Assembly (NCBI GenBank): GCA_015521705.1
Contig: WANR01000036.1
Span: 1-64,000, forward strand
DNA from: Desulfurococcales archaeon
Lineage (GTDB): Archaea; Thermoproteota; Thermoprotei_A; Sulfolobales; Acidilobaceae
Length of the DNA: 64,000 bases
Direction of reading: 5' to 3'
Below are positions 16,571-61,800 of this stretch, piece by piece. Numbering within the stretch: the stretch's first letter is position 1; each line of letters starts with the position of its first letter. The translations under genes and the position numbers were made by a program. Under the pieces are notes generated by a model. That model had not been told where the DNA came from and made no database searches. It saw nothing but the letters and a program-made list of their open reading frames with translations.

Positions 16571-16671
16571 GTATTTAGGAGTTTATGGATCCTTTGGAGT
16601 GGGCCTCATGTAAACGTTAGCACCCAGAATACTGTTGGTGCCGGGAGTATACTTGTGGCACAGCGTCTCCC

Positions 16672-16680
16672 ATATTTATA
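16672..16680 (+). promoter_or_regulatory. TATA box for pilin-like gene
   Basis: ATATTTATA is centred about 34 bases before the TTG at 16710; a GGGTGG ribosome site follows at 16698-16703. This supports 16710, not the longer upstream frame, as the start. Confidence 0.5.
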
Positions 16681-16709
16681 GCGTCTCTATTATTAATGGG
16701 TGGTTTGCC

Positions 16710-18500
16710 TTGACTCTCAAGCACGGATTCGGGAGGGGTCTGAGCGAGGTTCTGGGGGGGTTACTAGTAGCTCTAGCCATGGTTGGCCTAGCAGTCTCGC
16801 TATACGCTATAACTTCGCAATTGACGTCTAAAGCGATTACTGTTGCCAGTGATGCGTCGCTTAGGCTGGAAGAGGCAACAACTCCCCCTCAGCTAGTACT
16901 ACGCCTGTACCCCAATGGGAGTCTAGCACTGCAAGTATTTAGCATTAGAGAGGTCGTGATCGAGAAGGTTCTCGTAGCCTATGGTAATGGTAGCTTTGTG
17001 GAGCTCGAGGGATCACTGGTCAAGGGCTCTTGGGGTGTCATTATCTCGCGCAACTATAACTGTGAACCCGTCAGAGTAGCAGTGTTGACTTCTAGGGGCA
17101 ACGTTTTCTATTATAATCCTCTAAGCGACCCCGGAGCCCGGAACCCCTCAGTGTTGCCAGGGGGGTTCGTTGACTGCTCCCTATTCCTTGGAGGGTCTAG
17201 CGGGGCTGCTAGAGTCTATAGTGGTGGCGGGGAGATCGTTGTGGAGCTCATAGACGCTGGTGCTACGTCAGCGTCTGTCCAGTCATCCTACAATCTAGGC
17301 TATGTAGACTCCCTGAAGCTTAATGGGTGGATTAGTGGGCGCTGCAGGGTCTTAGCCTATAGGGGCTCTACTTACTTTGGATCTACAACCAATGAAACCT
17401 GGCTGACCCTGGGCTCTATGATTGTTGGCGGCCGTGAAGTAAACGTGACTCTGGGCCTGTTGTGCACTAAAAGGTTCTCAGCGCTCTATCTTGTCTTCCG
17501 GTACGATGAAGGCTCGATGGTAATCAATGGGAGCGCCAGCATAGTGTACTCGGCAGAAACGTACGCTAGACACGTGCCTAGTGGGGGCTATAATGATACC
17601 GTGCTCCCGATGCTCTACTCGCCCCTAGGAGATTTCAGGGGCTCGTCGACGCTGAGGTACAAGTATGGTAGCATTGGTAACTATATAGAGTCGTGGGGGG
17701 CAGCTACTGCGCGCTTCTCTACCACAGGCCCCGTAGTCGTCCTAGTAAACACTATGGGTGTAGAGCTATGGATAGACGCTAGGCTAGACATAAGCGTTGA
17801 AGCGGCTCAGCTGCTGGCAACAACGACTATCAGGCAGCACCTAGGCATTAGCAGCCCAGCCACAGTGACGAGGGAGTGCCCCACCGTGGCAGCGGCAGAA
17901 GACGTTACAGAGGCAGTGTTCAGAGCCCCCTGGACAAGCGTGAAGCCGGGCATCGAGATCCTGCACCCCTCCGGGTCTATATATAGGGAGCTGGGATGCG
18001 GCGAGACCATAAGAGTAGAGGCCCCGGCACAGGCGGTTCTTGAAGCAGTACTGCCAGCGCCCAGAGAAGCCCCGCTCATCTCGAGCATGAACGTAACACA
18101 GACAAGCTGGGTCAGCGAGGGAGGCTGGTACGTGAAGAATTATACTATAGAGTCACGAAAAACGCCAATACCAGCACCCTGGAGAACCCCCTACATGATA
18201 GTATTCACGCATGAAGGATCCCTCATGCTAACCGCACAGAACGGCTGGATGAACGCCACAGTATGGCAGGAAGGATCCGTAATTGCAGCCAGGACAAGCC
18301 TCCTAGCAGGGATCAACATAAACGTCACGCCCCCAGACTCCATCGTGGCGGTCTACCACTCCACAGGGCCCAAGCCATACTTCTCGGTCTCAATAGCGGA
18401 GCCCAGCACAGCCAAGACGCCGGAAGAACCCCAGACATACGCCCTAATAATAATAGCTAGTGGGTGGAGAGAAACGGAAATAATAGCCTGGTCATCCTAA
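16710..18500 (+). CDS. Large secreted protein with type IV pilin-like N-terminus
   Basis: A 596-residue exported protein. Using TTG 16710 the N-terminus is a short basic leader (LTLKHGFGRG) followed by LSEVLGGLLVALAMVGLAV, very like archaeal class III signal peptides that are cut just before the SE-containing hydrophobic helix. The body is beta-rich with many sequons (NGS, NET, NVT, NGSA, NDT, NAT) and few Lys. Typical archaeal pilins are under 200 residues, so this may be a minor tip pilin or an adhesin anchored by a pilin-like helix. The frame runs open to 16635, but SD and TATA favour 16710. Function unassigned. Confidence 0.72.
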   Translation: MTLKHGFGRGLSEVLGGLLVALAMVGLAVSLYAITSQLTSKAITVASDASLRLEEATTPPQLVLRLYPNGSLALQVFSIREVVIEKVLVAYGNGSFVELEGSLVKGSWGVIISRNYNCEPVRVAVLTSRGNVFYYNPLSDPGARNPSVLPGGFVDCSLFLGGSSGAARVYSGGGEIVVELIDAGATSASVQSSYNLGYVDSLKLNGWISGRCRVLAYRGSTYFGSTTNETWLTLGSMIVGGREVNVTLGLLCTKRFSALYLVFRYDEGSMVINGSASIVYSAETYARHVPSGGYNDTVLPMLYSPLGDFRGSSTLRYKYGSIGNYIESWGAATARFSTTGPVVVLVNTMGVELWIDARLDISVEAAQLLATTTIRQHLGISSPATVTRECPTVAAAEDVTEAVFRAPWTSVKPGIEILHPSGSIYRELGCGETIRVEAPAQAVLEAVLPAPREAPLISSMNVTQTSWVSEGGWYVKNYTIESRKTPIPAPWRTPYMIVFTHEGSLMLTAQNGWMNATVWQEGSVIAARTSLLAGININVTPPDSIVAVYHSTGPKPYFSVSIAEPSTAKTPEEPQTYALIIIASGWRETEIIAWSS

Positions 18501-18753: not shown

Positions 18754-21700
18754 GTGTTGAAGGAGAAGGCTGGAGCAGTACTAGTAGTACTCCTCATGCT
18801 GTTGCCCTTAGCACCCATAGGGCTACTAGCCCAGGGACAAGTCACTCAAATAACTGGTAGCGTCCAGGTATTCACACTAGTAGCATCTGGAGGCTCAGAG
18901 ATAACATTCGCCATCAACGTGACAGCTCTGAGACAGGCACCACAGTGGGTCGCCGCCCAGATAGATATATACCTTGACGACAACGGTTTCGCACAGATAG
19001 ATGCCGAGTCTATAAGGTTAACGCCAGCACCCCTAGACATTTCAGGCATAGACTACGTGGTCGGAACAGTCAGGCTACCACCAGCCTCCGTGATCCTCTC
19101 TACATTCACCGGCATAACAGGCGGCAAGCTCTACATCAAGGTTTTTGGCGGGCCACAGCTGGTAGCCGTGTCCAACCCGTTCATCTTCCTGCCCTCCACA
19201 GCAGGCATAATAGAGTTCAACGACGACAGGTACGCCTACTTCACTCACCCACTCTTCGGGGCTAACAACACACTCAACTTCACAGTAAACTTCACAAGCG
19301 TGAACAGCCTACTAGCCGCGGCGGGCCTGACAACAATAGACCTAACACAGTTCAACCTAACAGCCAACATAACCTCAGACGACGGAGACCAAGAACTCAA
19401 CCTATACCGAAGAACTACAGTGCCTAGTGAGAGCAGCGAGGTAATAAGCCCCATCACAAGCTTTACAACCCTAGCCGGAGACGTCTTAAGCGTGGAGGGC
19501 AACATAACAGACTTCCCCCTAATATCCCCGGAGAACCAGCTACCAGCAGGTCAGACCAGAGGACTCTTAGGAGTGAACTTCGAGAGGTTCACAATGGAGT
19601 TCCTAGTAGAGAACGAGACAGTAGACCTGTCTGGTAACATAATCGTAGTTAGAGCCGGCGCGGAAGAGCAGCGCATAACCGGTGGCATGTGGAGCGAGGA
19701 CCTAATACTGGCTTCTCTAAGCTACGAAGGCTTCATAGACATATTCCCCTCGGCAGGCTTCGATCCAAGACCAACACCAACAGGTGACGTGGAACCGACT
19801 ATCTCAGGGCCTACAGACGAGGTTAACGTGTTCGACAACATAACTGTTGAGCTACACAACTTCCCGCCAAACGAGAACATAAGCGTGACCTTCTACTGGT
19901 TCGACCCCACCGCTGGCACGTACACCCTAGTACCAGGAACAGGCGTGTTCAACGCCACGGCCATGTCAGGCTTTACCACAGGCACTAACGGGGCAGCTCT
20001 AATAGAAGTGTTCGTGCCCGGAGGCCAGTACGGCGGAAGGGTGGTAGCGCTCCAGATGGGCACCTTTAACACCGGGTTCTTCCTCGGACTACCCACAACC
20101 AATACGACAGTCATAGAACCATTCATAATACTAGCACCGTTCGGCGCTGACGGCAGCCTGCTTCCAGACACAGAAACTTTGACAACGCCAATGAGCTTCG
20201 CTCCCAACGATTACCTACTAGTCAAGGGCCACGGCTTCATACAGGAGTCCATACAGGTAGAGGCTAGGTTCACCAACGGGACCCTGATAGGCCCCCTAAC
20301 CCCGCTACTAGACTTCCCGGATAACGATGACGTCATAACAGTGCTTAGCAACGGTTCATTCTCCACCGTAATGAGGGCGCCGCCCAACGCTCTGCCATCA
20401 GCCACCACGGTGAACTTCTTCGCCGCGGGAACAACAGCAACCAACAACGGAACCTCCAGGAACCCTGGCTCAATAAGCTACACTCCTAAGGTCTACGTGA
20501 ACGCTACACCAGAATTCATGAGCTTTGGTAACGCACAGCTGATGCTAGGACTGTTCCCAGCATACCCAGCACCAGCCGTGTGGGAGGACCCGTCAACAAG
20601 GTTCTTCACTGCCGAAGTCATAGGGCTTGACGCAGCCAGCTATCCATCCGTGTTCCTCAACTTCTCGAGCGCAATCTTCGAGGAGACTATAACGCCTGCA
20701 GTATTCACGCCAAGCAACGGATACCTGAGGTTCGACGGCCTGCCAGTACCCGTGGTTCCCTACGGTGACTACGACGTCGAGGTCGTGAATGCTACCACTA
20801 ATACAATGATTGTAGACACAGATCCCGTCTCTAGAGTAGGCGTGAGGAACACTATAGCAGCCATAGACCCGCTCACCGGCGAGTTCAGGGGGCCCGCTAC
20901 ACCATTATTCCTGGGCGGCCCACAGCCATTCAACGTGACAGGCTACGGGTGGCACCCCAACGATGACGTGTTCTTCGACATAGCACAGGCCGGAGTCTTC
21001 GGAATATTCCTAGTGACGACTGACGGTAGGGGATCCTTCGAGAACGCCACAGTACAGTTCGACCTGTTCGTGCTGACAAGCGGCACCTTCACGGTCAACT
21101 TCACCCAGCCAGGCACACCGATGTTATGGAGGGCTCTCACAGTAGTGGTAGGCGTGCCTCCAGCACTAGAAGTCATGGTAGAAGCAGGCACTATAAGGTT
21201 CGCAGGCGAGACCGTCGACCTGTGGCTATTCGTGCTATTCGGAGACGAGAGAGCCACCGAGGACCAGATAAGCGTGATACACATATTCGTCTCAGCCCAG
21301 GTTGACGGCCTAGGCTACGTGAAGGTACTAACAGGAGCCGCAGCCGTGCCACAGTTCCTTGAGCCCGGAGTATGGCACCTGTCATTCACTGTGCCTCCAG
21401 AGCTGGCTGGCGAGGATCTAGTAGTTATAGGCCATGCTGTAGGTAGGTATGCGCCCAACTTCCCAGACGATGAAGACTGGGACACCACCATAATAACAGT
21501 CCCTGGAACCCTAGAAGACTACCTACAATCCATAAGCGGTAAAGTAGACCAAGTACTAGACGCACTTGAAGAGGTTAACGCAACCATAGTTGACGTGGTA
21601 GCTGCTGGAGTCGCCGAGATCAACACTACTGTAGGCATGCTTATCATGGACATAGAAGAGATGTTCGGCGACGTCTTCACGTTCCTCGACGCTATAAACG

Positions 21701-22764
21701 CTACAGTAGTAGAGATCAAGAGGGAGGTCATGATCATAGAGTCAGCCATGGGAACATTCAACATGACTCTGCAGGAACTGCTAGACCTAGCAGCTGAAAC
21801 CAATACTCTAGTAGAGGACGGGTTCACGACGGTACTAGTAACACTGTCTAGCGTCGAAGACAATGTCATAGAAGAAGTAGCCAACGCTGCCAACTTCCTG
21901 GCAAGCCTAATATTCTTCTACGGAGAAGAGACGCTGTTCAGGCTCGACATGGCTCTAGACAACCAGGCTGAAATAATAGACATGCTGGCAGCCCTCAACG
22001 CTACAATAGTAGGCATCAGCGAAGGCGTCGCAGCAGTGCAGACAAGCGTGGGCCAGGTACTTGTAGAGCTAGATGCCCTCGAGATGGCTCTTAGCGATGT
22101 AAACGCTACAATAGTAGGCTTCGTGATGGACGCCGAGGGCAATATACTAGCAGCCATCGACACAGGAACGGGCCAGATACTAGCCGAGCTAGACGTGCTT
22201 AGGAGATTCATCGATAGAGAAGTCGTGAGCGGGGTCGACGACATAAGAGCGACCCTAAGCGAGATAAGAGCATTCCTCTTCGCCGCCAGGACAGACCTCG
22301 AAACAGCTATAGGTAACGTGTTAGCCAGCGTCAGAGACCTCTCCAACGCCACAGCCTCAGCATTCACTGACACCTTCAACAGGCTTGCCAGCATAGAAAA
22401 CGCCATAAGCGGAGTAGCCAATGCAGTAGGCAACGTGCAGGACAGAGTATCCACAGTAGACAGCAAGCTAGACAACGTCAACAACAGACTAGGCACTCTA
22501 GACTCGAAGCTAGACTCCCTAGACGCCAAGGTGTCACAGGTAGGTGACGATGTGAAGTCAACAGTACAGTCCACAGTACAGAGTGCATCAACAGACGTGA
22601 GGAACGCCGTCACCGAGGCACAGTCAAGCATTGAAAACAGGATAGACACCGCCGCGAGCCAGCTGGCAAGCTCGCAGAGAACATTCGGAGCGCTCAACTC
22701 AGTACTCACAATAATAGTACTTGCAGCAGTAATCTACCTGATAGTAGCCACCAGGAGGACATAA
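18754..22764 (+). CDS. Tetrabrachion/S-layer-type surface glycoprotein
   Basis: Main surface protein candidate, 1336 residues. Signal peptide at about 1-27 (AGAVLVVLLMLLPLAPIGLLAQG). Residues about 28-920 are beta-rich, Ig-like-looking units with few charged or Cys residues. From about 925 to 1310 the chain becomes a long coiled coil, with clear heptads at its end (VDSKLDNVNNRLGTLDSKLD). A single membrane helix at about 1314-1332 and RRT close the protein. More than 25 N-X-S/T sequons occur, including NATIV/NATVV at 942, 982, 1082 and 1117 in the stalk. This layout matches tetrabrachion of Staphylothermus. The next gene encodes a subtilase of the matching type. The GTG start could instead be TTG 18757. 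Confidence 0.82.
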   Translation: MLKEKAGAVLVVLLMLLPLAPIGLLAQGQVTQITGSVQVFTLVASGGSEITFAINVTALRQAPQWVAAQIDIYLDDNGFAQIDAESIRLTPAPLDISGIDYVVGTVRLPPASVILSTFTGITGGKLYIKVFGGPQLVAVSNPFIFLPSTAGIIEFNDDRYAYFTHPLFGANNTLNFTVNFTSVNSLLAAAGLTTIDLTQFNLTANITSDDGDQELNLYRRTTVPSESSEVISPITSFTTLAGDVLSVEGNITDFPLISPENQLPAGQTRGLLGVNFERFTMEFLVENETVDLSGNIIVVRAGAEEQRITGGMWSEDLILASLSYEGFIDIFPSAGFDPRPTPTGDVEPTISGPTDEVNVFDNITVELHNFPPNENISVTFYWFDPTAGTYTLVPGTGVFNATAMSGFTTGTNGAALIEVFVPGGQYGGRVVALQMGTFNTGFFLGLPTTNTTVIEPFIILAPFGADGSLLPDTETLTTPMSFAPNDYLLVKGHGFIQESIQVEARFTNGTLIGPLTPLLDFPDNDDVITVLSNGSFSTVMRAPPNALPSATTVNFFAAGTTATNNGTSRNPGSISYTPKVYVNATPEFMSFGNAQLMLGLFPAYPAPAVWEDPSTRFFTAEVIGLDAASYPSVFLNFSSAIFEETITPAVFTPSNGYLRFDGLPVPVVPYGDYDVEVVNATTNTMIVDTDPVSRVGVRNTIAAIDPLTGEFRGPATPLFLGGPQPFNVTGYGWHPNDDVFFDIAQAGVFGIFLVTTDGRGSFENATVQFDLFVLTSGTFTVNFTQPGTPMLWRALTVVVGVPPALEVMVEAGTIRFAGETVDLWLFVLFGDERATEDQISVIHIFVSAQVDGLGYVKVLTGAAAVPQFLEPGVWHLSFTVPPELAGEDLVVIGHAVGRYAPNFPDDEDWDTTIITVPGTLEDYLQSISGKVDQVLDALEEVNATIVDVVAAGVAEINTTVGMLIMDIEEMFGDVFTFLDAINATVVEIKREVMIIESAMGTFNMTLQELLDLAAETNTLVEDGFTTVLVTLSSVEDNVIEEVANAANFLASLIFFYGEETLFRLDMALDNQAEIIDMLAALNATIVGISEGVAAVQTSVGQVLVELDALEMALSDVNATIVGFVMDAEGNILAAIDTGTGQILAELDVLRRFIDREVVSGVDDIRATLSEIRAFLFAARTDLETAIGNVLASVRDLSNATASAFTDTFNRLASIENAISGVANAVGNVQDRVSTVDSKLDNVNNRLGTLDSKLDSLDAKVSQVGDDVKSTVQSTVQSASTDVRNAVTEAQSSIENRIDTAASQLASSQRTFGALNSVLTIIVLAAVIYLIVATRRT

Positions 22765-22817: not shown

Positions 22818-23021
22818 AAACCCTGTACTTCCTGGATTACGGCTTTCTTTAGTCTTTTAAACGTTTCATTCTTCTACCCAGCTATGACACTTACAAATAA
22901 GACATGCTCCTTTAACCTGGATTATTAATAGCTTTGCCAAAGGTGTTCAGGCTGCTACTATGGAATATAACTTTTTAATTGGGTAACCCTGTTTAATAAT
23001 AGTGAGTCATGGGTGGACACT

Positions 23022-26000
23022 ATGAGGGTTCCGGGAAAAGCCAAGGCTTTAACTGCAGCGCTTCTTGCACTCCTCATAGCCTTGCCAGGGATAGGGCTAG
23101 TGTTTGGGCCCACGCAGGCATCGATGGGATACGAGCCTGGTTACAAGGCGATGATAGACCCCAGGCTACTGCAGGACGAAACCTTCGCGGAGCCTATAGC
23201 CCTGCTGAAGGGTAAGGAGGTATATTCTGATGCCGAAAAGGCGCTAGAGATCATAGGGGACAAGCTGAAGCCCCTCAGGGAGGGTCAAGTAAAAATATTC
23301 ATGGTAGTAGATCCTTCGGTGCCCGTGGATCTGTTAAACAGGGAGAGTAAGGGGGTCTTTGAGGTATTCAAAATAGGGAACATGAGGCTCGTAGAAGCGT
23401 GGGCCTCAAAGGAGGATATAGAGGATCTGGCATCAATACCTGGGGTTTACTACATAGGACTATACGTAAGCCCCGTAGACTCCATAGTGCAAGAGGCTAG
23501 ATCCAAGATTAACGTGGGCTCGTTCGCAAAAGACAAAATGGTTGGAGGCGAGGCCCCCTCACTCTATGAAGCCTCAGAAGTCATGGGTGCCTCTAGGGTA
23601 TGGGAAGAATTCAACATAACTGGAGAGGGTGTAGTGGTAGCAGTTGTCGATACTGGCGTCGACTTCGGCAACTCAGACCTCGGAGAGGACGCCATAGCCA
23701 GAGAGAACGGCGTTCCCTTAATCTTCGACACCGACCAAGCTGGTATAGTGCTAACCCTGGTTGAGGCTACAAAGACCGAGAACGACACAATACAGGTAGA
23801 AACACCTGTCCTCTTCTACGACGGCTTCTTCCTATCCCTGGGAGAGACCGACGCGGGCTTCTTCCTATACGTAAGCCGCCAGGGCTCCATATTCTACGAG
23901 GAGTTCCCCATAGAAGAGTTCTATGTGGGTGACATAGAGAGCGGTACCGGGATCTTTAAGTTCGGTCTCTTCGCCGCCTTAAACTACATACTATACGGAA
24001 ACTTCGGCTTCATGTACTACACAGTCCCGATCATAGTAGTAGACTCGGACGGCGACAGCCTGTACGACACAGCATACGCCGATCTCTCCACAATCTACTA
24101 CTTCTTCCTCAAAGCCCTCAACGAGACAGGAGTAGCCCCTGTAAGCCCAGATCCCAGCCTCTTTGACCTGAGCTTTGCCGATGAGAAACCATTATCGTTC
24201 GGCAGCGAGGTTGCAGCCAGGGACTTCAACGGTGACGGCGTCAACGACTTCAGCATAGGCGCCCTAGCAGGATACGTTTACGACTTCATCGGACTCTTCA
24301 CGGGAGAATTCGTGCCAGGCAACTGGACATCGGGCTTCGACTACGGAGGCGCTATACTGCCCGGATTCGATCCTCTAGGAAACTACATAACCATAGCGTA
24401 TGACTGGCTAGCCCACGGGACAAGCGTTGCCAGCGTTATAGCTGGTAGGGGCGTTGTACCCGTAGACCTCGGCTATGGCACCTTCGCCCTAAGAGGTATA
24501 GCTCCCGGAGCCAAGCTTGCTGCCAACACTGGTCTAATAAACCCGTTTGCAGCCCAGATGTTCTTTAGTGGCCACGACAAGGTGGGCCTAGAGTGGGAGT
24601 GGGTATTCACGGGGGCCCACAAGGCCGACGTGATAAGCAATAGCTGGGGCAACAGCTTCCTCCTACTAATAGGATTCGCCTCAGGCATGGGACCCTACAG
24701 CATACTCGAAGACTACATAGTAGCCAACACCGACACAGTCATAAGCCACGCCATGGGTAATGGAGGGCCAGGCTTCGGAACGGCGACTACTCCAGGGGCC
24801 GCATCGCTAGTAGTCAGCGTGGGTGCCAGCACGCTCTTCGACTACAGGCCCATATACGGTTACCTGCCAGGTGGCGATGGTGAGGTCGTCAGCTGGAGCG
24901 ATAGGGGACCCACACAGCTTGGAGTAGCAAAGCCTGACGTAGTGAATATTGGGAGCTTTGCCTTCGCAATGGCTCCAGTCAATGTAGGCCTCGGCGACGG
25001 AAGATTCGCCTTTGACCTCTTCGGAGGAACCAGCGAGGCCACCCCTATGACCTCAGGAGCTATAGCACTAATCATAGAAGCTTACAGAGAAGCCTTCGGC
25101 ACGTCGCCCTCGCCCGGAACTGTTAAGTCCATACTCAAGAGCACGGCCAGGGATCTAGGGTACGACGCATACACCCAAGGAGCTGGCCACGTAGATGCAT
25201 ACAGGGCGGTTAAGTCCATACTGGAAGGCGGCGAGGTTATAGCCTCGACCATGGACACGTTCAACAACATCTACGGCATGATCCAAGGAAACTCCTTTAT
25301 AGTACCCGACACGATAAAGCCCGAGGCCGACACGCAGCTATACACAGGCGTTATGAAGCCCGGAGAGTCGAAGACCCTCAGCCTCGACCTTAGAACCTTC
25401 GGAGGCGAGGTCAGCGCAGAACTGTCGGCTGTATGGTTCCACTCGCTACCACTGAACCTACTAGACTACTTGGACCTAGACAGGGGAGTAGCCTTTATAG
25501 GAGGCCAGGCAATGCCGCTAAGCTCCATACTCTCAAGCGTAGACAGCCAGGGCGGAGAGATAACCGTGACTCTTGACGCTCCAAGCGCTAGGATCTTCAT
25601 ACCAATAAGCGACGCCGCGTTCCAAAACGCTGAAATGGTGGAGTTCGTAGCCTGGATACCCTACAGCATCTACGACCCTGAAGGCAGGGAGGGAATATAT
25701 GGCTTCGTTCCAGGACTCCCATGGATCTGGATGGGCATTGAGGTTCACTTGGGCATAGACGTTAACAACAATGGAGTCATAGACCTCCCATCAGAGACCA
25801 GCAGGCTGAACTACGACATAAGGTATGCCAACAACTTCCACGTCACCATAGGGAAACCCTTCGAGAAATTCCAGAGAACCATAGAAAGGGTCGAGGAAAG
25901 ACTAGGCCTAGACCTCAGCGAAGCGACCACCGAGGCCTACCTCGACATAAGGGTGATATTCAACGGCTACTACTATCTAGGCCAGACGCTAGACCTTCCC

Positions 26001-27023
26001 ATCAAGTTCGAGCTCAGGAAGATACACAGGCTACCCTTCACGTGGATAGAGTTCAGTGAGACAAGCGTCACAGTCAACGAGGAGGGCACAAGCGTTGACG
26101 TAACAGTAAGCGTGCCTCCAGACGCGCAGCCTGGAGTCTACGAGGCATACGTGATCATAGAATACGATGGCAGAACAACGCTTGTCCCAGTTTCGATACC
26201 AGTGGCTGCAGTAGCCACTCCAGATTCGGGGGTCATAACACTGTCTTCCACAACGGAGGAGTCCTACTATAAGAACTACCAGTTCGAGGGCCAGTTCGAC
26301 TGGTCGTGGAGGTACGAGAGCGGTGATTGGAGAACGATCCCCGTGATAACAGAGGATCCCAGCATAATAGGTTTCATCGTGAAGGTAGAGTGGATGGGAT
26401 ACAACTCGAGTGTTGACGTGGGATTCGCCTCTCTAGGAATACCTTTCCTGGCAGGCGAGCCAGACGAATTCTACTATGGCGCAGTGACGGCTGCAAAGCT
26501 CACTCTACCACTATACAGGAGCGGCTGGTTCCCGCACTACGACTACCCAACACCGCAACTTGCCACTATATTCGCTCCAGTGTACCCGTTCGCTATAGAC
26601 GTGCCTCACTGGGTGGTGCTCCATAACACTCTAATAGATGCTTCCGACGCCTATCCAGAACAATACACTCTAAAGCTGATCCCAGTAAGAGCTAGCCCGC
26701 TGGTCTTCACAGTGCCCAGCGGGGAAGAGACCACTATAACTCTAGAGCTTACCTCGTTCGCTCTCAGCAATGCCATGGTGGTTCCTCTAAGCGTGGTCGG
26801 AGACGCCCAAATATCCTCCATGACAACCACGCTGGGCTACGGGTTTACCCACGAGTTGAACATAACGCTCACAGCAACGACGCCTTCAACCATAATACTA
26901 GGAGTCGCCCTAGATAGGCTCGACCAGTACAACATAGGGTTCATGTGGTTCGGCGACAAGGTAACAGTACTAGAGGCTAAAGGCTTTGCCCTCATAGCGG
27001 TCCAAGTCATACCTCAAGAATAA
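23022..27023 (+). CDS. Large secreted subtilisin-like serine protease (STABLE/pyrolysin type)
   Basis: Exported S8 protease of 1333 residues. Signal peptide MRVPGKAKALTAALLALLIA..., then a propeptide region. Counting from the upstream GTG 23013, the catalytic residues are Asp213 (VVAVVDTGVDFG), His468 (DWLAHGTSVASVIAGRG), Asn583 (GNGGPGFG) and Ser674 (GGTSEATPMTSGA). The 255-residue insert between Asp and His carries Asp-rich calcium-like loops (DSDGDSLYD, DFNGDGVND). The ~600-residue C-terminal part is beta-rich. No membrane helix is seen, so it is probably held by the surface protein encoded just upstream, as the STABLE protease is in Staphylothermus. ATG 23022 is preferred because GGGTGG lies 7-8 bases upstream. 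Confidence 0.9.
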   Translation: MRVPGKAKALTAALLALLIALPGIGLVFGPTQASMGYEPGYKAMIDPRLLQDETFAEPIALLKGKEVYSDAEKALEIIGDKLKPLREGQVKIFMVVDPSVPVDLLNRESKGVFEVFKIGNMRLVEAWASKEDIEDLASIPGVYYIGLYVSPVDSIVQEARSKINVGSFAKDKMVGGEAPSLYEASEVMGASRVWEEFNITGEGVVVAVVDTGVDFGNSDLGEDAIARENGVPLIFDTDQAGIVLTLVEATKTENDTIQVETPVLFYDGFFLSLGETDAGFFLYVSRQGSIFYEEFPIEEFYVGDIESGTGIFKFGLFAALNYILYGNFGFMYYTVPIIVVDSDGDSLYDTAYADLSTIYYFFLKALNETGVAPVSPDPSLFDLSFADEKPLSFGSEVAARDFNGDGVNDFSIGALAGYVYDFIGLFTGEFVPGNWTSGFDYGGAILPGFDPLGNYITIAYDWLAHGTSVASVIAGRGVVPVDLGYGTFALRGIAPGAKLAANTGLINPFAAQMFFSGHDKVGLEWEWVFTGAHKADVISNSWGNSFLLLIGFASGMGPYSILEDYIVANTDTVISHAMGNGGPGFGTATTPGAASLVVSVGASTLFDYRPIYGYLPGGDGEVVSWSDRGPTQLGVAKPDVVNIGSFAFAMAPVNVGLGDGRFAFDLFGGTSEATPMTSGAIALIIEAYREAFGTSPSPGTVKSILKSTARDLGYDAYTQGAGHVDAYRAVKSILEGGEVIASTMDTFNNIYGMIQGNSFIVPDTIKPEADTQLYTGVMKPGESKTLSLDLRTFGGEVSAELSAVWFHSLPLNLLDYLDLDRGVAFIGGQAMPLSSILSSVDSQGGEITVTLDAPSARIFIPISDAAFQNAEMVEFVAWIPYSIYDPEGREGIYGFVPGLPWIWMGIEVHLGIDVNNNGVIDLPSETSRLNYDIRYANNFHVTIGKPFEKFQRTIERVEERLGLDLSEATTEAYLDIRVIFNGYYYLGQTLDLPIKFELRKIHRLPFTWIEFSETSVTVNEEGTSVDVTVSVPPDAQPGVYEAYVIIEYDGRTTLVPVSIPVAAVATPDSGVITLSSTTEESYYKNYQFEGQFDWSWRYESGDWRTIPVITEDPSIIGFIVKVEWMGYNSSVDVGFASLGIPFLAGEPDEFYYGAVTAAKLTLPLYRSGWFPHYDYPTPQLATIFAPVYPFAIDVPHWVVLHNTLIDASDAYPEQYTLKLIPVRASPLVFTVPSGEETTITLELTSFALSNAMVVPLSVVGDAQISSMTTTLGYGFTHELNITLTATTPSTIILGVALDRLDQYNIGFMWFGDKVTVLEAKGFALIAVQVIPQE

Positions 27024-44005: not shown

Positions 44006-44123
44006 AGTCCTTAGCCAGTTTGATTGCCACTATTGGCTAAACAGATAAATAGTTTGGCTAATATTATTGATAACCAAATATAATGGGGAACAGGCCAGAT
44101 TGCTACTAGGGAGTAGTGGCGTG

Positions 44124-44705
44124 ATGATGCGCAGAGGACTCACTGTAATAACAGTTGCTATAATAGTTGCAGCCACCTTAGCACTGGCTCTAGCGTTTGC
44201 CTCCTACTACGTGGCTATCAGCTCCAGCGTTGGCGAGCGAGTCGAGGTATTGAACTATCTAGGCTCGCTCTCGTCTAATCTTTACTATTACGTTGAGTGG
44301 AGGATAGATAACACGTCCTTGAACGCCACCCGTCTATACGTTGGGGCTCTTAACTATAACCCGTCCCCTATACGCGTTTATGTTCTAGCTCTAGAGGCGC
44401 CCCTAATGAATTCCACGCTGCCTATAAGCGTTAACGCGACAGACCCTCCACAGATCGTCGAGACGCTAACTATTCCTAGCGGCTCCATATATGTTCTAGG
44501 CCCTAATGGTTATACACCGCTTGATTCCATGCTGGGCAACTCTCTGGTAACTCTACATGAATGGTTGCTGGAGACCACGGCTTCAAAACCATACCTTCTA
44601 AGCATAGATGTAAGTTGGGGGGTGTCGAGCTCTGCCTTCATAGTGTTTCTTGTAGAAGTTGGAGGTGAGTATTATGAGGTCTCGAGACTTAACATTCACA
44701 GGTAA
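44124..44705 (+). CDS. Pilin-like secreted protein
   Basis: A 193-residue protein with a short basic start (MMRRGL) and a long N-terminal hydrophobic helix (VITVAIIVAATLALALAFASYYV), then a beta-rich external part with sequons NTS, NAT and NST. It resembles archaeal pilin-like or membrane-tethered surface proteins, but the peptidase cleavage site is not clear (no typical G-SE). ATG 44124 is uncertain; the frame begins at TTG 44067. It overlaps the next pilin-like gene by about 30 bases, so the two are made together. Confidence 0.65.
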   Translation: MMRRGLTVITVAIIVAATLALALAFASYYVAISSSVGERVEVLNYLGSLSSNLYYYVEWRIDNTSLNATRLYVGALNYNPSPIRVYVLALEAPLMNSTLPISVNATDPPQIVETLTIPSGSIYVLGPNGYTPLDSMLGNSLVTLHEWLLETTASKPYLLSIDVSWGVSSSAFIVFLVEVGGEYYEVSRLNIHR

Positions 44706-46392
44706 ACGGTTTGGACAGTCAGAGATAATAGGTGCCCTAATAGTTTTAACAGCCATAATTATGCTACTCCTATTCCTAGCCAATACTATCCTAGTGAGCG
44801 AGGTTGAAGAGTCCTCCAGAAGGGCCAGAGAGGCTTCACTAGAGCTTCAAAAATCGCAGGAGACAATAAGCATAGACCCTGTGACGCAATGCATAACTAA
44901 TACTGGAGGCAAGACGATCTACGTAGTGAGGGTATGGTACGCTAACGGCACAGTAAGGGTTTTGGATCCACCGCTCCCAATAGAACCAGGCTCTACTGAC
45001 TGCTCTATAACCGGAGATCCAAGCGTCGAGGCTATAGTCACTAGCCTTGGCAATGTACTCTTCCTGAAGCCGCAAATAAGCAGTATCCAAGCTGGAACTG
45101 TACAAGCTTTTGCAGAAGAGGCTGGAAGCGTGCTCATAAGGGTACCTCAAGTCGTAGTAGAAGAAAGCATACTCAACCCTGAAGTGGTAAATGTAAGCGA
45201 GGAACTAGTATTGCAGCCTACAGAGCAAAATCCTGGCAGGGGGATGATAAGGTATGTAGATTCCCGCCAGGCAATACTTAGGACAACCTATGAGGGAACT
45301 CAAGGCTTCATGCTACTAGCATGCCTCACGCAAGGCCAGATAAATAGCCTACAGAGTGGAGCTCAAACCCCGCAGACAATAAGCCCTGTAGACATGGTAA
45401 GGGTTAGCAATGTGTATTTCGGGTATGCTACTCGGCCCGACTCTTATAACGTATTAATAACTGGCCTGATCACGCTAAGCTGCTCACCAGACAAGCTCCC
45501 AGTAATAGCGTTCGAGAAAAATGGCGATGTAGACGTGTATATTCTGGGTTCCAATAGCGACACGGGCTATTATAGGATAAAGATATACGGTATAACAGGT
45601 ATTGATACAGGATCTGGCAACTTCAGGTTTAAGTACATCTCTGACACCGTGATCCTCGACACCCAAGATCCCTTAGATGCCCTTGGCTTTTGGTACTATG
45701 GCTATACCAGTACTTCATGCACTAGCCAGAGATATGGAGAGGCATGCGCACAGATATATCTAAGGGGGCCAGTAGATAGGGTTGTAGTATATGAGGATCT
45801 TTATTCAAACTCCGAGTTCAGCTATGAACCATATCTTTTCGTCCTCGACAGTGATGGCAACCAGGTTCCTGAACTCTTGTTCACAACAGAAGAGTTCGAC
45901 TATGGGTACAGGTACGGTTTCGCCGTCCCCTCTTGTTCCGTCGATGATGCAGGTTTCTTGGACGAGTCCACGGATTCCGCGAACGGCCTTTACTTCACGT
46001 TTATTGACCCTGATATAGAGATCAACTCTAGCGAGGTCGCAGCCATCTTCGTGACTGTAAGGCTTTACTTCCATGATACGGAGGGCGGCGACACTGCCTG
46101 TGTAGATAACCCGCGTCAAGGAATTCTAGTGTTTGCCCTGGTAGATGAAACAGGGCGCATAGATAGCTCTTACACCCTGATTTACCAGCAATTAGACGAT
46201 ATAGAAGACACGTGGCCCCCTAATAGGAACTTTGTGACAGACACGTTCTCTGTCACGGTTCCTGATACTGGTAAGATCTACAGGCTACGCATACAGATCA
46301 TAGATCCCTACGGTTTTCCGGGAGGATCAGACGACCTAGACTACACGCTGGCCCTAGAATCGATAGGCGTAGTTATGTTGGCTAGAGAGTGA
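44674..46392 (+). CDS. Type IV pilin-like surface protein, large
   Basis: A 572-residue protein with a class III-type signal: MRSRDLTFTGKRFGQ then SEIIGALIVLTAIIMLLLFLA, where the SE before the hydrophobic helix is typical of archaeal pilins. A coiled stretch (SEVEESSRRAREASLELQKS) follows, then a large beta-rich external region with aromatic and Asp-rich loops (NSDTGYYR, DEFDYGYRYGF-like). GGAGGTGA lies five bases before the ATG, so this start is firm. It probably forms part of a filament or an adhesin with the preceding protein. Pyruvate kinase overlaps its end by four bases. Confidence 0.78.
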   Translation: MRSRDLTFTGKRFGQSEIIGALIVLTAIIMLLLFLANTILVSEVEESSRRAREASLELQKSQETISIDPVTQCITNTGGKTIYVVRVWYANGTVRVLDPPLPIEPGSTDCSITGDPSVEAIVTSLGNVLFLKPQISSIQAGTVQAFAEEAGSVLIRVPQVVVEESILNPEVVNVSEELVLQPTEQNPGRGMIRYVDSRQAILRTTYEGTQGFMLLACLTQGQINSLQSGAQTPQTISPVDMVRVSNVYFGYATRPDSYNVLITGLITLSCSPDKLPVIAFEKNGDVDVYILGSNSDTGYYRIKIYGITGIDTGSGNFRFKYISDTVILDTQDPLDALGFWYYGYTSTSCTSQRYGEACAQIYLRGPVDRVVVYEDLYSNSEFSYEPYLFVLDSDGNQVPELLFTTEEFDYGYRYGFAVPSCSVDDAGFLDESTDSANGLYFTFIDPDIEINSSEVAAIFVTVRLYFHDTEGGDTACVDNPRQGILVFALVDETGRIDSSYTLIYQQLDDIEDTWPPNRNFVTDTFSVTVPDTGKIYRLRIQIIDPYGFPGGSDDLDYTLALESIGVVMLARE

Positions 46393-57423: not shown

Positions 57424-58350
57424 TTGGGTTGTTTTCTTGAGGCTAGTAGTCTGTACAAGGAGTATCCGGGAGGGATAGTCGCTGTCAAGGGGATCAGCCT
57501 AAAGGCTGGCCTGGGCAGGACTTCCCTCATGGGACCTAATGGGAGTGGTAAAACGACTACCCTCTCAATGCTTGCTGGGGCCCTCAAGCCCAGCAGGGGG
57601 ATTGTCAGGGTGTGTGGCTATGACTTGTGGGGTAGGGAGTGGATCGAGGCCAGGAAGCGCCTAGGCTATGCCCCCCAGAAGATGCCGTTTAGGGAGAAGC
57701 TTAGTGGAATGGAGAACCTGGTATGGTACGGGTTACTCAGAGGCCTGGGCTTAGGCGAGTCTAGGAGGAGGGCTAGAAGCCTGTCCGAAGATCTCGGACT
57801 ATCGGGGTATATTAATAGGAGTGTGGCATCCTACAGCGGCGGCATGAGGAGGAGGCTGAGCCTTGCCGCAGCATTAATGGGGGAACCAGACGTTCTAATA
57901 CTGGATGAACCCACCTCGGGCCTGGATCCCAGGGCTAGAGAGGAATTGTGGCATCTTATAGAGGTCTCGTTGAAGGGGCTCACCATACTATTCTCAACCC
58001 ATATATCAGTTGAGGCAGAGCTACACTCAGACTACGTCTACATTTTCAACGAAGGCACGATAGTGGCTGAAGGTAGGCCTGGCGACTTGATAGAAAAGCA
58101 TGCACCCAAGCCCAGGATAATAGTCTATGTGAGGGGCGACGCCGAGCCCCTCGTAGTGGATGGTGTAAGGCCCGAGGTAGTGACTAGAGGTGTCTACATG
58201 TATCCAGTAGATGATCCCAGAGAGGATATAAGGAGGATAGTAGACGCATACAGCCTGCATGGGGTCGTTGTTGAAAGGATCGAGACTAGGAGGCCTGGGC
58301 TGGAAGAGGTATTCTTCACAGTAACTGGTAGGAGGCTGGAAGAGGTGTGA
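57424..58350 (+). CDS. ABC transporter ATP-binding protein
   Basis: 308-residue ATPase of a DrrA-like exporter: Walker A LMGPNGSGKTTTLS, signature SYSGGMRRRLSLAAAL, Walker B VLILDEPTSGLDPR, H-loop FSTHISV. The last ~90 residues form the accessory domain, ending RRPGLEEVFFTVTGRR. The start is TTG with GGTGG upstream. The permease gene starts eight bases after the end, and the operon appears controlled from 57155-57183. Confidence 0.92.
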   Translation: MGCFLEASSLYKEYPGGIVAVKGISLKAGLGRTSLMGPNGSGKTTTLSMLAGALKPSRGIVRVCGYDLWGREWIEARKRLGYAPQKMPFREKLSGMENLVWYGLLRGLGLGESRRRARSLSEDLGLSGYINRSVASYSGGMRRRLSLAAALMGEPDVLILDEPTSGLDPRAREELWHLIEVSLKGLTILFSTHISVEAELHSDYVYIFNEGTIVAEGRPGDLIEKHAPKPRIIVYVRGDAEPLVVDGVRPEVVTRGVYMYPVDDPREDIRRIVDAYSLHGVVVERIETRRPGLEEVFFTVTGRRLEEV

Positions 58351-58357
58351 GCGGGAA

Positions 58358-59554
58358 GTGATACTATCTCAGGTTCTGAGCGAGGTATATGCTGCTGTGA
58401 AGAGCATGGCTAAGGCCAGGGACCTATTATTCTGGGTCATAATATTCCCGGTCATAGTCACAGGCCTATTGATAGGAATATTTGGGAGAGGCGGATCAAA
58501 CATAACGTTCGACATAGCCATCGAGAGCCACGACTCGGGATGGTTTAATGAAACCGTGTATAGCGTGCTTAACGCTACTGGGGTCTTCGATGTTAGATTC
58601 GTCGGGCAGGGATTGGAGGAGCTTGTATCCAATGGTAGCGTGGAGGTTGGACTGTACATACCCCAGGGGGTGAGCGGGAACCTTAGCTCCGGGATCCAGG
58701 CCAGGGTGACAATATACTATCTAGCAGGGGTTCAGGACTCAGAGGTGGCTAAGGCTAACCTGGAGGGCATACTATCAGGCATCTCGGAGAACATCTCGGC
58801 TATAGGGATGGAGATGGCTTCCCAGTTCATACCAGCAGGCTTCATGGAGAGGATAAAGTTCCTGGCAGACCCGGTTATAATAAAGGACGAGGTTCTGCAG
58901 CCAGGAGCTCTGGCCACTACTGGAGGCATAAGGGCCTACTATGCGGTTAGCATAGTAGGCATACAAGCCCTCTATATAGGCATATTCTCGAGCATAGCCA
59001 TGATAGTTGAGAGGCGTAAGGAGGGAGTATTCCCCGTAATACTCTCGAGCCCCGTGAGGGGCTGGGTGATGTTTCTCTCAGACACGCTGGCGGCGATAGC
59101 ACTGGTAGCCGTATCAGCCATAGTAGTCCTACTGGCAGGCCTCGCCATGGGGGCTGACTACTCAAAGCTAGACCCGCCCAAAATAGCTGTAAGCTTCGCA
59201 CTCATAGGAATTGGGGCCGTGTCAATGATAGGTATAGGCTTGATACTATCGATACTAGCCAAGACCTCCGAGGGAGCGACAGCCCTAGGAAACATGGTAG
59301 CCTTCCCGGTAATGTTCATAGGCGGATTCGCAGTCCCGAAGTTCATACTGCCAGAACAACTACAAGTCGTGGCTGAATGGTTCCCACTATCAAGGATCAT
59401 AGACTCGATAAGAAACATGGCTGTGTTTGACTACACGATAGCCGAGGCCTTGAGCCATGCAGCGCCAGCTATAGTAATAGGCTTAACAATCTACACGATA
59501 GGAGCACTAATATACAAAAACGTGCTAACAAAGATTGCAGAAACACCCTACTAA
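58358..59554 (+). CDS. ABC-2 type transporter permease
   Basis: Membrane subunit of 398 residues with six helices: one N-terminal, a ~170-residue extracellular domain with sequons (NET, NAT, NGS, NLS), then five C-terminal ones including AFPVMFIGGFAVPKFILPEQLQVV, the ABC-2 pattern. This YhgE/Ybh-like design with a large outside domain is seen in multidrug and lipid exporters. GTG start eight bases from the ATPase stop. Only one permease is present, so it works as a homodimer. Confidence 0.9.
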   Translation: MILSQVLSEVYAAVKSMAKARDLLFWVIIFPVIVTGLLIGIFGRGGSNITFDIAIESHDSGWFNETVYSVLNATGVFDVRFVGQGLEELVSNGSVEVGLYIPQGVSGNLSSGIQARVTIYYLAGVQDSEVAKANLEGILSGISENISAIGMEMASQFIPAGFMERIKFLADPVIIKDEVLQPGALATTGGIRAYYAVSIVGIQALYIGIFSSIAMIVERRKEGVFPVILSSPVRGWVMFLSDTLAAIALVAVSAIVVLLAGLAMGADYSKLDPPKIAVSFALIGIGAVSMIGIGLILSILAKTSEGATALGNMVAFPVMFIGGFAVPKFILPEQLQVVAEWFPLSRIIDSIRNMAVFDYTIAEALSHAAPAIVIGLTIYTIGALIYKNVLTKIAETPY

Positions 59555-59663: not shown

Positions 59664-61445
59664 TCATATATCTACCATGCTTATTGAGTCGTATACGATG
59701 TTATAGAGGCTGTAGAGGGTTGTTAGTGCACGCGTGTTTCTAGTATACATCCATAAGGATAAGCCGTCAGGCCCGAGCGCCAGGTCTAAGCCCTTAGCCT
59801 GTTTGAACGTTGTCGCTGATACCTGTGTTATCCCAGTGATCACGGCCCCCGTCGGCGATATGAATATCAGGGTCCCAGCTACTACGTTGAAGGCTTCCAC
59901 GCTTTCCTTAGACTCTATAACTCTTTTGTCATCTCTCGTTTCTATGACTGTCATAGAGCTTAGTCCTTGGCTTAGATGGATCTCTATGGAAAACTCGCCG
60001 GGGACAGGGTTGTCTACTGTGGCCTGGCTTATATCTCCTTCAACTGTTATTTCTAGTCCATACTTGACGCTCAGCGGCGCGTCCCAGGAGTTGCTCCACG
60101 AGTATACCTTTACATTTCCTGAGTATATGTCGGTGGCGGAGGCTCTGTACATGTTAACAGTCGCATTGTCCCATATATCGTTGAACTTTCTAGCCACTTC
60201 CAGGATTGATACTAGTGTTGTGGTGGCCACTACCTTCTCGCCGTTTACCGTGATCTCAGAGGATGCTGTTAGGTTGAACGAGGACCCGGCCCTATACTCG
60301 GTGTATCCCTCTTCCTCTTTAGTAGAGTTGAATGAGTCATAGCTCGTTTCATATTCTAATAGAGTAAATGACACATTGCCCTCGGCCAGCCATACCAGTA
60401 GTGCTCCTCCCATTATCCATCTTGAAGTCGCGAAAATATTAGTCACTTCCATAGTTACGTTTCTTTCTCCTACTATGAGTGGTAGGAGCCCTGTCAGGTC
60501 GATCATGACGGGCTCTGTCAAGTAGGTCTTCACAGCTGGTATTGGCCTCCATAAGAAAGGCATTAGGCCGCCAGTGTATATGTAGTGGTATGGGTGTATG
60601 AGTGCGGCTAGAGTGTCGTCGAAATATATCTTTACTTCCCTATACCCGGCGCCGTAATAGTACCAGAATTCGTCGTATGCCAGGCCCTCAGTGAACAGAA
60701 CTAGGCGGGCCTTATAGGTGTTTAAGGGAACCGATATTGTAGAGGAAACATTAGGATCCGTTCTAGTTAGTTGTGAGACTGCGAGTCCCTGTTTCCACGT
60801 GTCCATCCATAGAGGGATAACATCATCAGGTACTTCTTCGGGTTTTTCTCCAGGGTAGAGGTAGATAGTCAGGTTAACCAGGAACCTTCCAGTCACCCCT
60901 ATCTGGGGTACAACCCAGTTTGGCAGGATCATAGAGACATTGATTAGGCCGTCTTCGAATAGGGGGTAGAACATTGTTATATCGCCCATAACAGTCCAGT
61001 TGAACCGCTGAGCTGTAGAGCCCCAAACCACAGGCACACCGTCAATGAAGACCCACAGGGGCCTATCATACTGGACAGGCCTGCCAAACTCCGGGTCATA
61101 TATGAGCCCGTCAATACGTATAAGGATCAGTTGCCACTCGCCCTCAGGCACATCAACTATCCTATACACAGGCTTAAACCCGGAAGAGGCGAATTCCTCG
61201 TTAACGAACACGCTAACAACTGTAGGTTCTACATCGGGCACTTTGAAGACATAGTCCTGCCAGCTCCAATAAGTTGCAGGGGACCCTCCAGACCCCTCAG
61301 ACGGCGATTGTAACACTAGCGGAGGTGACTGGTTAAAAGATATTTTAGGCGGTGGAGCCAGCTGAGATCCAGCGCTTACAGCACTCGCCGGAGTCATAGG
61401 AGCTAGTATTAGGACCACTATTAGTAGTGAGATAATTCTCTTCAA
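59664..61445 (-). CDS. Secreted PNGase A-like protein (peptide N-glycosidase A family)
   Basis: A 593-residue exported protein: signal peptide at about 1-23, then a two-part beta-sandwich resembling plant and fungal peptide-N-glycosidase A. Matching landmarks are DRPLWVFIDGVPVVWGST (127-144), DITMFYPLFEDGLINV, DEFWYYYGAGYREV (258-271) and IYTGGLMPFLWRPIPA (289-304). PNGase A removes N-linked glycans from peptides; here it could release or recycle glycans of the surface glycoproteins or foreign proteins. GAGGTGG lies eight bases before the ATG, and TATA-like ATATTTAAAT at 61486-61495. Catalytic residues cannot be confirmed by eye. Confidence 0.75.
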   Translation of the reverse strand: MKRIISLLIVVLILAPMTPASAVSAGSQLAPPPKISFNQSPPLVLQSPSEGSGGSPATYWSWQDYVFKVPDVEPTVVSVFVNEEFASSGFKPVYRIVDVPEGEWQLILIRIDGLIYDPEFGRPVQYDRPLWVFIDGVPVVWGSTAQRFNWTVMGDITMFYPLFEDGLINVSMILPNWVVPQIGVTGRFLVNLTIYLYPGEKPEEVPDDVIPLWMDTWKQGLAVSQLTRTDPNVSSTISVPLNTYKARLVLFTEGLAYDEFWYYYGAGYREVKIYFDDTLAALIHPYHYIYTGGLMPFLWRPIPAVKTYLTEPVMIDLTGLLPLIVGERNVTMEVTNIFATSRWIMGGALLVWLAEGNVSFTLLEYETSYDSFNSTKEEEGYTEYRAGSSFNLTASSEITVNGEKVVATTTLVSILEVARKFNDIWDNATVNMYRASATDIYSGNVKVYSWSNSWDAPLSVKYGLEITVEGDISQATVDNPVPGEFSIEIHLSQGLSSMTVIETRDDKRVIESKESVEAFNVVAGTLIFISPTGAVITGITQVSATTFKQAKGLDLALGPDGLSLWMYTRNTRALTTLYSLYNIVYDSISMVDI

Positions 61446-61800
61446 GATACCACCTCAACTAATATTATTTAAGTTGATGGCTTCTATATTTAAATATTTT
61501 AGTGAATTTGTGGGGGTCAGCAATAATACCGTGTTCAACGTGTCCCGCTTGTGCCCTAGAAGCTATGGTTTATCGATGAAGCGTTGATGCTCCGTGAATG
61601 GCTTGCTTGAGCTGGTTAGAGCTTAGGCGGTTCCGGACCCGCTAGAACCGAGGCCATAAAAGATCCTAAGAAGAGGTCTGACGGGCCATGTCTGTGCCCT
61701 GTTGACGGATATAAGGCTTGGCTAGTAGTTTATGTGGTCTTTGCTCACAATACTTTATATTCCTTGGTTCCCGATCAAAGGCTTCGGGGATGCCGTTTAA
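61446..61800. other. 355-bp intergenic region between PNGase A-like gene and secY
   Basis: Holds the divergent promoters: a minus-strand TATA at 61486-61495 and a plus-strand TATA-like TACTTTATAT (61751-61760) for secY. In between, CGGTTC/GAACCG at 61628-61650 can form a hairpin with an 11-base loop, followed by CATAAAAGAT. I see no gene there. Confidence 0.5.

Follow-up and report, generated by a model that had tools for sequence, protein, structure and literature searches.

A predicted secreted PNGase A-family protein from an Acidilobaceae archaeon and the pairing of related genes with proteases

The 64,000 nt stretch of DNA analysed here (the window; contig WANR01000036.1, from a thermophilic member of the Acidilobaceae, order Sulfolobales) contains a minus-strand ORF of 593 aa (59664..61445) whose product is a firm member of the PNGase A family, and we assign it to the peptide:N-glycanases (PNGases) as an enzyme class with high confidence. 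As to substrate and role, we infer that the protein is probably secreted and works with surface proteases on chitobiose-linked glycoproteins. It very likely hydrolyses Asn-GlcNAc2 bonds outside the cell; that it does so catabolically, together with a protease, is a reading drawn mainly from the gene neighbourhoods of relatives, to which we give about an even chance. The synthesis of N-glycans by archaea has been studied in detail, and in the literature searched we found nothing on their removal by archaea, nor any characterised archaeal PNGase A or activity data for one.

The ORF lies exactly where an earlier note on this DNA had placed a PNGase A-like protein of a crenarchaeote, and the nearest genomes, those of Acidilobaceae and Caldisphaera, are from the same family, in keeping with that attribution. 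A search of Pfam, which the note had proposed as a check, retrieved a single family, PNGaseA (PF12222), with strong significance (E 2.6e-33; 115.7 bits against a curated cut-off of 25.3), whereas no NCBIfam model matched. The match spans residues 79–355 (60381..61211, minus strand), corresponding to profile positions 16–321 of 336, and comprises the core of two jelly rolls. All of the landmarks on which the note had relied were located in the ORF: VWGST at residues 140–144, DEFWYYYGAGYREV at 258–271 and IYTGGLMPFLWRPIPA at 289–304.

Structural comparisons led to the same family. The nearest solved structure by sequence was PNGase Bb (9vla; phmmer against PDB, E 5.7e-9), which was also the sole match in the whole PDB for a profile built from 15 archaeal sequences (E 7.1e-29). 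A first AlphaFold model, made with 15 sequences, was moderate (pLDDT 70.7); a second one, with 38 sequences, was good (mean pLDDT 87.4, pTM 0.85), with poor order only in the signal region and in a linker (residues 15–54). The top Foldseek match for the model was again 9vla (E 1.4e-28; TM 0.66 for the query and 0.72 for the target; 598 columns), followed by zebrafish Ngly2, PNGase F, PNGF-II and further PNGases. The alignment to 9vla covers the whole chain, indicating that the all-beta C-terminal part (residues 356–593; 59667..60380, minus strand), which has no Pfam family, is also PNGase A-like. Taken together, the profile and the whole-chain fold match bear out the PNGase A-like identity first proposed from the letters of the DNA. 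Matches to capsid and channel proteins were dismissed as weak jelly-roll or beta-sheet resemblances; that the double jelly roll of PNGase F is related to virus capsid proteins has been described before (PMC8812541).

The ORF starts with TTG, preceded at a distance of four bases by a Shine-Dalgarno-like GAGGTGG (61450..61456, minus strand), and encodes no cysteines. Residues 1–22 (LKRIISLLIVVLILAPMTPASA; 61380..61445, minus strand) have, as judged by eye from the sequence, the shape typical of a Sec signal peptide, and are probably one; in the AlphaFold model the N-terminus forms a helix (residues 2–14) followed by the disordered linker. With 10 N-glycosylation sequons, the product exceeds the 3.4 expected on the basis of shuffled sequences, a surplus that fits export. 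A plus-strand ORF (59734-60342) lies antisense within the gene and most likely just shadows the PNGase coding frame.

In a global profile alignment with PNGase F, whose query sequence was identical, letter for letter, to 1pnf, the EWDR motif containing the catalytic Asp60 aligned with QYDR (D127; codon 61065..61067, minus strand), and CAEW, containing the catalytic Glu206, with YDEF, within DEFWY (E259; codon 60669..60671, minus strand). The scores were weak, so that the mapping rests jointly on motif agreement, conservation and the shared fold. D127 and E259 do not vary in any of the 37 archaeal and four bacterial sequences of the alignment, nor in PNGase Bb. In Ngly2, replacing the corresponding residues, Asp421 and Glu555, with Ala abolished activity altogether (PMC12753239). 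The acidic pair that the earlier note had asked to see is thus kept, and D127 and E259 are the retained, putatively catalytic Asp and Glu, by analogy with the chemistry of PNGase F and Ngly2. PNGase F has a third acidic residue, Glu118, without a conserved counterpart in PNGase A, where the aligned region reads LPNW and not TETW.

W299, T291 and G292, also invariant in the family, are conserved in the ORF, which nevertheless departs from its relatives at three other positions. Residue 266 is Ala, whereas the other 40 aligned homologs and PNGase Bb have Pro; residue 264 shows an Asn-to-Tyr change; and residue 146, in GSTAQ (codon 61008..61010, minus strand), is Gln. At this last position Gln occurs in eleven sequences, including that from the window, while Glu is found in PNGase Bb, in the sampled bacterial homologs and in every archaeal homolog linked to an S53 protease (see below); the printed sequence of Ngly2 has no Glu in the corresponding loop. 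In addition, acidic residues make up 11.8% of the protein from the window, more than in any other protein of the set (6–10% in the S53-linked homologs). The site at residue 146 is possibly related to pH, and Q146, the high acidic share and the missing acid proteases suggest a less acidic habitat, as a correlation only.

Known members of the PNGase A family release N-glycans with conversion of Asn into Asp and have an acidic pH optimum. The protein from the window resembles almond PNGase A, Terriglobus roseus PNGase H+ and PNGase Bb in profile, whole-chain fold, the QYDR and DEFWY motifs, the catalytic pair and a signal-peptide-like N-terminus; it differs in its identity to the bacterial members, which is about 23–24%, in lacking cysteines, in having Q146 and A266 where Glu and Pro would be expected, and in coming from a thermophilic archaeal order. 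With PNGase F and Ngly2 (PF09112 plus PF09113) it shares the double jelly-roll core, with fold matches at E about 1e-8 to 1e-10, and residues equivalent to Asp60 and Glu206, but it has no match to PF09112 or PF09113, Glu118 is not conserved and sequence similarity is marginal. The cytosolic PNGases (NGLY1/PNG1) are transglutaminase-like with a Cys-His-Asp triad, whereas our protein contains no cysteine at all and has no such Pfam match.

The family is no rarity, as it is carried by many Sulfolobaceae genomes and by S. acidocaldarius. PF12222 was found in 14 of 60 genomes of near relatives and, in a wider sample of 398 genomes of the phylum, in 33; and S. acidocaldarius, included among the control genomes, was positive. 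A single-sequence scan of genome contigs did not retrieve any homolog; a profile scan of genome contigs retrieved 31 loci. Outside the Sulfolobales, homologs occur in Vulcanisaeta, a Marsarchaeota genome, Thermoplasmata, actinobacteria and an Eremiobacterota genome, and none was found in viral contigs at the sensitivity used. In the tree, Sulfolobaceae and Caldisphaera join further lineages in a large clade, distinct from another of ten sequences (support 100/99), in which the protein from the window is the deepest and longest branch (length 1.19). Three homologs from Thermoplasmata (L035, L038 and L048) have the PNGase A domain within larger proteins of 812–950 aa, that of 812 aa reaching a contig edge, and two of them show weak C-terminal matches to Ig-like/PKD or Y_Y_Y domains. 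In Vulcanisaeta distributa JCM 11216 (L037) and in a Thermoprotei MAG (L033) the PNGase A is present as two overlapping ORFs, from a frameshift or a split gene.

We also searched the same 398 genomes for pro-kumamolisin (peptidase family S53, PF09286) and matched the positions to those of PF12222. A pro-kumamolisin gene was found upstream of the PNGase A gene, on the same strand and within 6 kb, in 22 of the 33 genomes with PNGase A, spanning 11 genera from three families. This gene, of around 1200–1400 codons, often overlaps the PNGase A gene by four bases and was the only strongly conserved neighbor in a comparison of the flanks; the loci with the S53 gene directly upstream are L025-L033, L050, L052, L055-L061, L064 and L065. 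Its product includes the pro-kumamolisin activation domain and a membrane segment at the C-terminal end, and aligns with kumamolisin (E 2.6e-25), keeping Glu, Asp, Asp and the Ser of GGTS, which we take to be catalytic as in sedolisins; the structure in that alignment, 1t1e, is from a mutant with Ala in place of this Ser. The pairing, of which no earlier report was found in the literature searched, suggests that these archaea deglycosylate and degrade glycoproteins extracellularly.

The PNGase A proteins of these pairs, from Sulfolobaceae, Caldisphaera and other Acidilobaceae, are homologous to that of the window, but the window gene falls in a sister clade that lacks the S53 partner. It is monocistronic, with a convergent ABC transporter (57424-59554) on one side and a divergent secY (61801) on the other, and there is no pro-kumamolisin gene directly upstream, the position being occupied by secY; the case for a protease partner therefore comes from relatives. 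Linkage to secY or to the ABC transporter was rejected, as members of the clade showed no conserved neighbor. Neither PF09286 nor thermopsin was detected in the genome of the window, which is 82% complete, and thermopsin was discarded as a partner on this account. The genome does encode two S8 subtilases, one of them within the window (1336 aa; 23013..27023, plus strand) and homologous to the subtilase of locus L024 (35% identity over 988 aa). It adjoins a gene (18754..22764, plus strand) for an exported protein, also of 1336 aa, with a coiled-coil-like C-terminus, a terminal membrane segment and 28 sequons versus 10.8 expected, which is possibly one of the organism's own substrates for the PNGase. 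In L024, from a Desulfurococcales genome, the subtilase, a coiled-coil surface protein and PNGase A follow each other in succession, with the subtilase two genes upstream, and in L068 a coiled-coil surface protein likewise immediately precedes PNGase A. The layout of the coiled-coil protein and its pairing with an S8 protease resemble those of tetrabrachion and the STABLE protease from Staphylothermus marinus (PMC5744192); however, the likeness is one of layout, a search of the PDB having found no relative of the coiled-coil protein, and the pair is 32 kb away from the PNGase gene in the window, which by itself makes it weak evidence for a link with the PNGase.

The note had stated that archaeal N-glycans differ from those of eukaryotes, which is only partly right here: the core by which Sulfolobales N-glycans are attached, GlcNAc-beta-1,4-GlcNAc-Asn (chitobiose), is the same as in eukaryotes (PMC2948927, PMC8993221). 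Agl24, which makes this core, was reported in all the examined genomes of Acidilobales, Desulfurococcales and Sulfolobales (PMC8993221), and the N-glycans of Sulfolobus sp. E11-6 were released with PNGase F (PMC12042106). The core and this release indicate that the bond needed by a PNGase exists in Sulfolobales. The genome of the window encodes the oligosaccharyltransferase STT3 and a GT4-family phosphotransferase, a candidate AglH. It had no match to Alg14 (PF08660), a model that was discarded as an indicator of Agl24 since it also misses S. acidocaldarius, in which Agl24 is present. Sequons are enriched in several of the window's exported or membrane ORFs, above all in the coiled-coil protein, while the S8 protease (6 versus 5.3 expected) and nearly all the cytosolic ORFs show no enrichment.

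In the reading that we prefer, the PNGase would cleave, outside the cell, the amide linkage that joins Asn to the innermost GlcNAc in N-glycans with a chitobiose core; the glycan would be set free and Asp left in place of Asn. Together with a surface protease (S53 in acidophilic relatives, probably an S8 subtilase in the organism of the window) it would make glycosylated proteins digestible. Glycoproteins from neighboring or dead archaeal cells, or shed surface protein of the organism itself, would be likelier substrates than eukaryotic food. The main competing explanation, which we consider rather unlikely, is that the enzyme serves not for feeding but for remodelling or quality control of the cell's own surface, taking N-glycans off its S-layer and its exported proteins as these are turned over, as the cell divides or as the envelope is repaired. 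Such a role would suit the wide retention of the family in Sulfolobaceae, the sequon-rich coiled-coil protein that adjoins the S8 protease in the window, and the coiled-coil genes immediately before PNGase A in L024 and L068. Nevertheless, the S53 protease to which the gene is coupled in 11 genera is of a general digestive type, which better fits degradation, and, as N-glycosylation is essential in Sulfolobus (PMC8993221), uncontrolled deglycosylation of the self would be harmful.

Digestion of glycoproteins could also be foreign to the window protein if this had kept the fold while turning into an amidase of a related kind or into a protein that binds glycans, as its long branch, the loss of an otherwise invariant Pro and the changes at residues 264 and 146 might suggest. 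We regard this as improbable, since the protein retains D127, E259, W299, T291 and G292 as well as further invariant positions, Q146 is shared with ten relatives and the printed Ngly2 sequence has no Glu in that loop either. Far less probable still is a role in defence or attack, by which receptor glycans would be removed from the cell surface against viruses, or competitors stripped: surface N-glycans can be targets of Sulfolobus viruses (PMC12042106), but the examined loci showed no defence-like neighborhood, viral contigs lacked homologs at the sensitivity used, and the protease link indicates digestion. Extending the preferred reading, glycoprotein digestion with a protease, to the group as a whole, we tentatively propose that acidophilic archaea possess a dedicated extracellular module for digesting glycoproteins, in which the S53 acid protease is translationally coupled to PNGase A, and that less acidophilic relatives, such as the organism of the window, would run an equivalent chemistry in which an S8 protease acts at the surface layer and the enzyme is tuned to another pH by the change of Glu146 to Gln. 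If true, this would be the first PNGase system with an archaeal N-glycoprotein as its natural substrate. Glycan removal is directly testable, as PNGase A is widespread in Sulfolobaceae, coupled to the acid protease, and present in the genetically tractable S. acidocaldarius. Additionally, the archaeal enzymes may serve as acid- and heat-stable tools for N-glycan release.

Elsewhere in the window, a plus-strand ORF of 621 aa (16635-18500) has no Pfam match, is probably exported and contains 10 sequons versus 3.8 expected. Likewise, two overlapping plus-strand ORFs (44067-46392) have no Pfam matches and each displays an N-terminal hydrophobic segment following a basic stretch, with a pilin-like look.
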